Source of the DNA: Pseudomonas sp. stari2
Lineage (GTDB): Bacteria; Pseudomonadota; Gammaproteobacteria; Pseudomonadales; Pseudomonadaceae
Direction: 5' to 3'
Assembly: GCF_040760005.1 (NCBI RefSeq)
Contig: NZ_CP099760.1
Location: 1,111,501 to 1,175,500, forward strand
DNA: 64,000 bases
Below are positions 56,240 through 57,572 of the stretch, piece after piece (the first letter of the stretch is position 1; every line of letters starts with the position of its first letter). The translations under genes were made by a program, and so were the position numbers. A model generated the notes under the pieces. The model worked only from the letters and a program-made list of their open reading frames with translations, was not told where the DNA came from and did no database searches.

Positions 56240-56710
56240 GGTGCTGCGGCTTATGGTTCCGCCCTGACGGCGGGTCACTTTTTACAAACGCCTAAAAAGT
56301 AACCAAAAACGCTTGCTCCTGCGTTCGGCCCGCTCGCTAGGGCTCGGGGTTCCTTCGCTCCGGGATTCATCCGGGGGGCATCGCCTACGGTTTGCTTCGC
56401 TGCACCTCCTCTCGATGTGTTTGGCTTCGCCAAACGGTCGCTGCGCTCCCACCCCCGGATAAATCCCTCCACTCAGCCTTCCGACGTCGCCCGTGGATCA
56501 AGATCAAGAGCTGCAGCCGAGCTAACGCTCATCCTGTTGAGTGGTGGTGGAGCAACAGCTAGAGCGGTTTGTGTGCTTTTCAGATTTTGAATTCACCTTC
56601 GATATCGCACGTCGGCGTACCTCTCCCAAACACCACGGTCAGTCCCCTCTCCCTACGGGCGGTCCGACGTTTCGGGAGGGTTAGGGTGAGGGCAGCTTTT
56701 GAAACTGTTT
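56240..56710. repeat. Non-coding intergenic repeat tract
   Basis: The 929-base gap between the last dppA and the DUF6124 gene holds two stretches with the look of multicopy P. fluorescens filler: 56250-56520 (CTGACGGCGGGTCACTTTTT, CCAAAAACGCTTGCTC and alternating GC-rich short palindromes such as TTTGGCTTCGCCAAA) and 56650-56700 (CCCTCTCC...GGAGGGTTAGGGTGAGG). Short open frames cross it but have no ribosome sites. Copy number cannot be checked here. From 56710 to 56890 I see nothing. Confidence 0.5.
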
Positions 56711-56899
56711 AAATCTCAACAACATCGCAGGACCCTTCCCACAAGGTTTTCAGGTTGTCCGTCGGAAGCACGCTCTCTAGTCTTTGGTTGTCGCAGAAAA
56801 CTCTGTGATTGGGTGTGAGAACCCAGGCAAGCGAGTGTTATTCAAACGTCAGTCCGACCATAATTGCCGCCAGCTTTCTGCTGCCTGTAGTTGATTTAT

Positions 56900-56973
56900 G
56901 GCGGCTGTGTGCGGGCAGACTTCGGTCTGGCCGGAATCTCCTTGCCCGGTTTCTCACCCCGCACATAGCTGCC
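56900..56973 (+). ncRNA. Structured leader RNA before the DUF6124 gene
   Basis: GGCGGCTGTGTGCGGG (56900-56915) pairs with CCCGCACATAGCTGCC (56958-56973) over 16 bp, the two non-Watson-Crick positions being G-U. Inside lie a hairpin CAGAC-TTCG-GTCTG with a stable UUCG loop (56916-56929) and a second short hairpin CCGG/CCGG (56931-56949). The loop of the second, CTCCTTGC (56938-56945), is fully complementary to GCAAGGAG (57017-57024), the Shine-Dalgarno of the gene. The arrangement suggests translational control in cis. Confidence 0.6.
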
Positions 56974-57031
56974 ACCTCTTCGCCGCGTGAGAACGGCATC
57001 TGGTGGCTTAAAATCAGCAAGGAGGTTATCA

Positions 57032-57403
57032 ATGAACAAGGTTGTCCCCGATCCACCCCTCGAATCACCCACCCCCCTCGAAGAAGCCATGCGCGCCGAA
57101 GACCTCGCCCGCAACCGCGAAGCCATCAAGCGCGCCCTCGATTTCTATCTTTGCCCCAACCCTTCCAAACCGCGCCCGAGCACGATGTATATGGTCACGC
57201 CCAACGTCGACACCGAAAGCCTGCTGGCCAACGCCTGCGAGTCCCTGGCGTCGGCCAGTACCATCGCCAGCAATTTCGCCAATGAACTCAGCGGTTCGCA
57301 GCGCAGTACGGCGCTCGGGATCCAGCAGATCATCATGCTGGCCGAGCTGGCGGTGAACCGGGCGCTGGATCGGGCGCTGGATCGGGTTGATCCGCAAACC
57401 TGA
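57032..57403 (+). CDS. DUF6124 family protein
   Basis: 123 residues from the ATG with AGGAGG at ideal spacing. Proline-rich start (VVPDPPLESPTPLEEA), then two helical parts with the segment FYLCPNPSKPRPSTMYMVTPNVDTESLLANACESLASA and a C-terminal helix (GIQQIIMLAELAVNRALDRALDRV). Small, soluble, restricted to Pseudomonas as far as I know, with several paralogues per genome; function unknown. Preceded by the structured leader at 56900. Confidence 0.8.
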   Translation: MNKVVPDPPLESPTPLEEAMRAEDLARNREAIKRALDFYLCPNPSKPRPSTMYMVTPNVDTESLLANACESLASASTIASNFANELSGSQRSTALGIQQIIMLAELAVNRALDRALDRVDPQT

Positions 57404-57414
57404 GACCGTGTCAT

Positions 57415-57490
57415 CGTTCATCGCCAGCAGGCTGGCTCCCACAGGAGTCCGCATTCCAAATGTGGGAGCTAGCTTGCTAGCGATGACGGC
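57415..57490. repeat. REP-like element
   Basis: Imperfect inverted pair ATCGCCAGCAGGCTGGCTCCCACA / TGTGGGAGCTAGCTTGCTAGCGAT-type halves around a short spacer; typical Pseudomonas REP doublet. Confidence 0.75.
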
Positions 57491-57519
57491 GGAGCTGACA
57501 ACCCAAATGCCGGGCACAA

Positions 57520-57554
57520 AAAAACCGGCGATCATTCACTGATCGCCGGTTTTT
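57520..57554. terminator. Bidirectional terminator between the DUF6124 and SIMPL genes
   Basis: 15-bp perfect inverted repeat AAAAACCGGCGATCA / TGATCGCCGGTTTTT with a 5-base loop; serves both convergent genes. Confidence 0.88.
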
Positions 57555-57572
57555 CATTCAGCCGTCACTCAA

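Follow-up and report, generated by a model that had tools for sequence, protein, structure and literature searches.

C4 antisense RNA is a gene-silencing RNA first known from the phages P1 and P7. In P1 the elements lie in the order a1b1-C4-a2b2-gene, and differences in C4 are what make P1 and P7 heteroimmune. The C4 of these phages is described as an RNA cut from its own transcript by RNase P, whose b' arm covers a ribosome-binding site and whose a' arm pairs upstream for specificity (PMC5320573). The RNA, the c4-a1b1 element and their occurrence in Proteobacteria are already known (PMC2864571), and a study of mapped transcription starts in B. cenocepacia places a C4 in one transcription unit with an upstream isrK (PMC4603805). 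The closest multi-copy case is that of the Group 1 C4-like sRNAs of A. baumannii (Weiss et al. 2016), of which there are 21 with variable a' arms, and for which read patterns point to processing at a GG motif (PMC5320573). As that account presents them, their targets are unidentified and host RNAs are only proposed (PMC5320573), whereas in the present genome the guides can be matched to, and covary with, the adjacent gene. The P4 CI RNA (seqA/seqC) and IsrK/STnc1160 of Gifsy-1 are likewise described as short RNAs cut from their own transcript, and P4 CI has complementary sites both upstream and downstream (PMC4825925). Unlike C4, P4 CI acts by transcription termination; our comparison with these RNAs was made by description and with the isrK model (RF01394), which has no match within positions 56700-57200 of the DNA studied here.

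The window, meaning the whole 64-kb stretch of DNA that was analysed, contains one leader of this kind. Rfam family RF01695 (C4 antisense RNA) covers positions 56894-56979 of the forward strand over model positions 1-87 of 87, scoring 77 bits against a cut-off of 45 (E 2.5e-13, cmscan of the whole window), and is the only Rfam family to reach its cut-off in the window. Judged from its sequence, the leader is a member of this described antisense RNA family. The layout is that of the P1/P7 C4, with a predicted promoter, a putative a1/b1, C4, a2, b2 and a DUF6124 gene following one another and b2 lying over the Shine-Dalgarno sequence of the gene. Also shared with the phage system (RF01695, with c4-a1b1 as RF03163) are the scaffold, the b' arm on the ribosome-binding site, the a' arm on an upstream site and the GG of the closing stem (PMC5320573, PMC12197685). 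The present system differs from that of P1/P7 in being chromosomal, with around thirty copies per genome, and in that the genes it would control are mostly DUF6124 or DUF3077 genes and not icd-ant. A phage antirepressor operon is not the target in the window, and only one of 31 cassettes in this genome (L001) precedes a Bro-N gene; since such a target is not part of the Rfam model, this is no bar to membership. The features of the locus are as follows.

56755..56783, + strand: predicted sigma-70-like promoter, TTGTCC (56755-56760) and TAGTCT (56778-56783) with 17 bp between them
56777..56829, + strand: c4-a1b1 target element (RF03163), 42.2 bits, E 2.2e-9 in a 501-base search, below its curated cut-off of 46.7 bits
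56815-56821, + strand: a1, in a hairpin loop, pairs with a'
56826-56831, + strand: b1, just 3' of the a1 hairpin, pairs with b' over 6 nt only
56894..56979, + strand: C4 antisense RNA (RF01695, 77 bits, cut-off 45)
56899-56915 with 56958-56974, + strand: closing helix of 17 bp, two of them G-U, in the minimum free energy (MFE) fold, with compensatory pairs in paralogues
56916..56929, + strand: UUCG-capped 5-bp hairpin, in the MFE fold
56930-56950, + strand: second hairpin of the MFE fold, carrying the 11-nt loop 56935-56945
56935..56945, + strand: b' guide loop AAUCUCCUUGC, 11 of 11 pairs with 57017-57027, one of them G-U
56951..56957, + strand: a' guide junction UUCUCAC, from the second hairpin to the closing helix, 7 of 7 pairs with 56987-56993
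56987..56993, + strand: a2 target GUGAGAA, exact complement of the a' junction
57017..57027, + strand: b2 target GCAAGGAGGUU, pairs with the b' loop and includes the Shine-Dalgarno GGAGG, which lies 6 nt upstream of the start codon (57032)
57032..57403, + strand: DUF6124 gene, 123 aa (PF19619, 91.9 bits, cut-off 27)

We consider it about 85% probable that the leader represents a C4 antisense RNA cassette on the chromosome, in which one transcript is made, C4 is cut out of it and both arms block translation of the cassette's own gene. One promoter would then give a transcript reading a1b1-C4-a2b2-DUF6124, from which C4 would probably be excised, with RNase P as the likely enzyme and the GG of the closing stem as its likely site. 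On the mRNA of the same gene, the a' junction would base-pair with a2 and the b' loop with the Shine-Dalgarno region b2, blocking ribosome binding, and the upstream a1/b1 copy would serve as a second binding site. In this way transcription would make its own translational repressor. The GG in question lies at 56900-56901, at the 5' end of the closing helix, and corresponds to G7 and G8, which are invariant in 31 paralogues; by analogy with the phage RNA, it may be the RNase P processing site.

The fold of 56890-57060 has an MFE of -68.1 kcal/mol, compared with a mean of -54.3 kcal/mol for shuffled sequences (z -3.6), and none of 200 shuffles equals it. An earlier note on this DNA, made from the letters alone, had described a closing helix of 16 bp; the helix is present in the MFE fold, at a length of 17 bp. 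The same fold contains the UUCG-capped hairpin of that note, and the eight-base match that it reported between the second loop and the Shine-Dalgarno is exact, CTCCTTGC (56938-56945) being the complement of GCAAGGAG (57017-57024). The a' junction, for its part, sits inside a longer match to the a1 hairpin.

A search of the genome, which is a single 6.31-Mb contig, gave 32 C4 matches, 31 of them above the cut-off. Pfam finds 24 DUF6124 and 5 DUF3077 matches, which amount to 28 distinct genes because one gene exceeds both cut-offs. Comparing coordinates by eye, we see that 21 of the 24 DUF6124 and 3 of the 5 DUF3077 matches, or 24 of the 28 distinct genes, lie directly 3' of a C4, which bears out the note's mention of similar leaders before both kinds of gene. 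The remaining three DUF6124 genes and one DUF3077-only gene (L033-L036) have no C4 even in an unfiltered search, which indicates that C4 is not essential to the DUF6124/DUF3077 family. The c4-a1b1 model has 27 matches in the genome (10 above its cut-off), and by eye each adjoins a C4, 26 of them a C4 of the genome set and one the weak C4 of L037. Pairing was scored in 31 cassettes, leaving out of the 32 the C4 of L031, which has no convincing downstream gene, and never counting the sub-threshold L037. These cassettes precede 21 DUF6124 genes, 3 DUF3077 genes, 1 Bro-N gene, 5 genes for small proteins without a Pfam match and 1 short frame of 60 aa that has a DUF6124-like start and no Pfam match.

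Several of the individual loci deserve mention. The best-scoring C4 of the genome, L001 (C1:6293463-6293549), precedes the gene of a Bro-N protein whose PHROG matches are antirepressor-like; among the target types, this one comes nearest to that of phage P1. The C4 of L031 (C1:5289796-5289873; 45.2 bits) is located just 3' of cassette L015's DUF6124 gene and may be a relic. L037 (C1:1396500-1399500) holds a 33rd C4 of 37.3 bits, with c4-a1b1 and isrK matches alongside, all of them below threshold. Cassettes L007 and L013 (C1:3014293 and 3017364) face each other at a distance of 3 kb and have different guides.

Covariation was assessed in the 31 cassettes and in loci from other species. The latter were the best 80 of 109 relatives found with the window protein, several of them from one genome; L120, L121 and L155 had no C4 and were left out, giving 77. 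By eye, 74 of the 77 have no more than about 140 bp between the end of the C4 and the beginning of the protein match, and in L124, L127 and L154 the C4 lies some 565-667 bp upstream of the match. In the C4 scaffold, 16 of 25 predicted pairs show two-sided, pair-keeping changes among the 31 C4s of this genome. The guides themselves vary strongly: no two of the 31 cassettes have the same b' loop and their a' cores are of 23 kinds, and the other-species set has 58 different loops and 16 a' cores. Pairing is kept nonetheless: runs of at least 6 nt between guide and own target are found for a'/a2 in 31/31 and b'/b2 in 30/31 cassettes of this genome, and in 76 and 75, respectively, of the 77 loci from elsewhere. 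Mean self scores in the genome set (17.7 for a2, 20.1 for b2, 22.3 for a1 and 17.4 for b1) lie above the highest values from 5000 partner shuffles (14.3, 14.6, 16.7 and 14.7, respectively), so that the a'/a1 and b'/b1 pairings, too, exceed all shuffles over the cassette set. In neither set, and for none of the four arm tests, does any of the 5000 shuffles reach the observed self-pairing mean, the shuffles being of a kind that keeps no phylogeny. The covariation of both arms in these sequences points to selection for the pairing. The covariation whose absence the earlier note had named as counting against it is thus found both in the scaffold and in the loop/Shine-Dalgarno pairing, and together with the Rfam E-value it bears out the view that the features of the leader are jointly unlikely by chance.

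The same data bear on the nature of the switch. The earlier note had read the leader as a cis-acting translational switch resembling a riboswitch or thermometer. A metabolite riboswitch or an RNA thermometer could be imagined from the structured 5' leader and the complementarity of loop and Shine-Dalgarno, and for a thermometer one may add that, in the single fold made of this cassette (56890-57060), part of the Shine-Dalgarno pairs weakly, outside the C4, with the beginning of the coding region. However, the hypervariability of the loops and of the junction leaves no conserved ligand pocket to be seen, the duplicated two-arm targets a1/b1 and a2/b2 fit neither model, and the window cmscan gave no match to a riboswitch or thermometer family. 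We therefore disfavour the riboswitch on the hypervariable loops and two-arm targets, and regard such a device of either kind as extremely improbable, with the thermometer set aside less firmly than the riboswitch. What stands of the note's reading is a structured leader with loop/Shine-Dalgarno pairing, now backed by covariation; the second arm and the upstream a1/b1 copy had been overlooked.

To compare own and foreign targets, nearest-neighbour energies were calculated for all combinations of C4 and two-arm target in the genome set. The best target is that of the own gene for 24 of 31 C4s, the other 7 scoring better on another target, and the best C4 is the own one for 25 of 31 targets. For the window cassette, the own target gives -25.0 kcal/mol and the next -19.3. 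Of the 930 cross pairs, 14 attain at least 90% of each of the two self energies. The b arm alone ranks the own target first in 23/31 cases and the a arm alone in 6/31, which indicates that the b arm provides most of the discrimination. As partner shuffles keep no phylogeny, we also compared self with swapped pairings between loci whose proteins are at least 65% identical and whose b' loops differ, as a partial control for relatedness; these pairs are not independent, and in other species the protein used was that of the first frame downstream of the C4 with 90 aa or more. Self pairing of b' beats swapped pairing in 399/413 comparisons at 65-75% protein identity, 245/248 at 75-85% and 81/89 at 85% and over, and that of a' does so in 310/380, 198/224 and 61/76, respectively. 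The protein of L011, for example, is 96% identical to that of L012 and 95% to that of L016, yet the guides differ and swapping makes the b arm some 3 to 7 kcal/mol worse. In three pairs (L142/L147, L015/L142 and L089/L084) the swap is better in one direction, and in L093/L094 it is equal. On phage contigs, the own target is preferred by only 34 of 74. These energies suggest that chromosomal C4 cassettes are self-specific in most, not all, cases. The genome carries some thirty such cassettes, most with their own guide pair co-evolving with its target, and closely similar DUF6124 paralogues would come under separate control.

Self-preference would also be expected if C4 stayed in the mRNA as a cis-acting leader whose loops pair with their own a2/b2, giving a pseudoknotted attenuator and no separate RNA: most C4s would then fit their own neighbour best, and guide and target do lie on the same strand with the predicted promoter 5' of both. 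The MFE fold argues against this, as it has an intact C4 with a' and b' unpaired, but weakly, because the program allows no pseudoknots. A free RNA is favoured instead by the conserved GG, by the presence of an a1/b1 copy and by the match to a family for which processing has been described (PMC5320573). We judge the cis-acting leader to be unlikely, and the C4 of the cassette to be probably, by analogy, a diffusible antisense RNA cut from the transcript, which may act in trans.

From the promoter pattern at 56755-56783 we infer that transcription in the window starts near 56790. The pattern TTGNNN-N17-TANNNT is found 60-190 nt upstream of the C4 in 23 of 31 cassettes of this genome and in 66 of the 77 other-species loci, compared with means of 0.7 and 2.2, respectively, in letter shuffles; with other spacings from 13 to 21 it is seen in 0-1 of 31 and 0-8 of 77. 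The other-species set is the fairer test, because the pattern was first noticed in the genome's own set. A generic promoter scan of 56600-57560, which is stricter about agreement with the consensus, did not report the proposed promoter. Its sole site was at 56987-57014, downstream of the C4 and overlapping a2 (shuffle mean 0.2); if real, this site would produce DUF6124 mRNA that lacks C4. The upstream sequence type of the window has three copies in the genome, all preceding a C4. A conserved upstream 23-mer has 17 genome copies at up to 3 mismatches, 16 of them before a C4. It does not quite serve as a mark of C4 promoters exclusively, since one of the 17 copies (L158) has no C4. At that locus, around position 1253, the cassette promoter element lies 5' of a different reading frame.

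Phage contigs also carry C4 cassettes, and a few host guides equal phage guides (L003 = L185, L006 = L241), as one might expect if the host RNAs formed a guide library that silences genes of incoming phages sharing its C4 code, a possibility that has been put forward for A. baumannii (PMC5320573). The contigs gave 83 C4 matches, of which the two weakest were dropped, and the remaining 81 yielded 74 distinct targets. When 30 host C4s (leaving out L001) were paired with these targets, 81 of 2220 pairs reached -20 kcal/mol or better, against a mean of 88 when b arms were permuted among the host cassettes. We rejected the guide library for this lack of excess over permuted arms; the covariation of the host guides with the chromosomal genes of their own cassettes speaks against it too, and we hold it to be very unlikely.

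The gene under the predicted control lies between two genes of the opposite strand, one for an SBP_bac_5 solute-binding protein and one for a SIMPL-domain protein. The DUF6124 protein, whose nearest relatives are Pseudomonas proteins, has three predicted helices (AlphaFold2 mean pLDDT 74), with no fold match at E 0.001 or better in the PDB or BFVD and no match to the toxin families of Pfam. We considered whether DUF6124 is a mobile gene and rejected this, as tblastn finds it in 1 of 50,697 phage records and 0 of 72,556 plasmids; the sole phage-record match, at the edge of a prophage record, is probably host flank. The DUF3077 protein of L006 has no tblastn match in the phage records, and two DUF3077 proteins match a PHROG family (function unknown). 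Homology of the DUF6124, DUF3077 and unnamed C4-controlled proteins was not established by profile comparison (P 0.021, 0.36 and 0.11). The one gene above both the DUF6124 and DUF3077 cut-offs has no C4, and a PrrF sRNA lies directly 3' of it (L034:1527-1674). In the window, the region 3' of the gene (57418-57556) contains an inverted repeat that we take to resemble Pseudomonas REP elements, followed by a GC-rich inverted repeat between runs of A and T, which by eye looks like a two-way terminator and is absent from the scan listing.

Small proteins under RNA control, in many dispersed copies and with uneven spread, recall type I toxin-antitoxin systems. The operon that C4 controls in P1 contains the cell-division inhibitor icd together with the antirepressor ant (PMC8201110). 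The cassettes could in that case be toxin-antitoxin-like modules, in which proteins of the DUF6124 class would damage or reprogramme the cell, with C4 as an RNA antitoxin from the same transcript. The absence of toxin and significant fold matches noted above, and the placing of antitoxin and target on one predicted promoter, count against such modules, which we think distinctly unlikely. A wider reading is more speculative than the C4 cassette itself, and we offer it tentatively, with the odds against it: a phage immunity RNA may have been turned into a genome-wide set of mutually insulated switches (up to 54 per genome), with guides evolving faster than proteins as selection separates near-identical paralogues, and with DUF6124-class proteins as silent effectors of antirepressor- or toxin-like kind. 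If this were true, effectors would be released singly, on failure of a given C4 or on transfer of a cassette to a cell without the matching C4.

The system is widespread in the genus. C4 matches occur in 54 of 59 Pseudomonas genomes (above the cut-off in 53), with a total of 1018, a median of 17 and a maximum of 54, counts that may miss weak matches owing to stricter filters. The same genomes have 703 DUF6124 and 222 DUF3077 matches (925 together), and the number of C4s correlates with that of DUF6124 (Spearman 0.88) and with that of both families combined (0.93). Both families are absent from the 5 genomes in which no C4 was matched; 11 genomes in all lack the two families, and 6 of these still carry 1-3 C4s. 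The relation is not one to one, as shown by the totals and by genome G009, with 38 C4s against 10 family members; since C4 outnumbers the two families, other genes must follow the remaining C4s. In the wider phylum, at least 42 of 299 sampled genomes have a C4, with at most 14 scored candidates per genome.

The scaffold is that of a known RNA, and what seems new here, on the sequences compared, is a chromosomal, multi-copy and largely self-specific C4 system. We found no report tying C4 to DUF6124 or DUF3077, and none of guide/target covariation among C4 paralogues, in the open-licence literature searched, which leaves most subscription papers outside. The analysis puts forward a mechanism for the leader found in a large family with no assigned function, and the C4 matches of the 59 genomes point to hundreds of natural guide/target pairs of antisense type that share one scaffold, with pairing scored in the 31 cassettes and 77 other loci. 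This makes a ready data set for learning the specificity and insulation of RNA-RNA pairing, and it suggests where to seek the targets of the A. baumannii C4-like sRNAs.

Finally, the genes that follow C4 in other genomes were surveyed in a sample of 48 loci, being 50 minus L160 and L166, which repeat L040 and L048; the sample is biased in that it consists mostly of the best-scoring C4 of each genome. A reading frame lies just 3' of the C4 in 46 of the 48, the other two giving no frame. The products include DUF6124- or DUF3077-like proteins (assigned by eye), a family of 52-54 aa and Bro-N-like proteins, and several begin M-x-K-x-x-P-(D/N)-P-P, as DUF6124 proteins do. By eye, this N-terminal motif or one close to it is seen in the otherwise dissimilar C4-associated proteins of L042, L063, L161, L163, L165 and L167.
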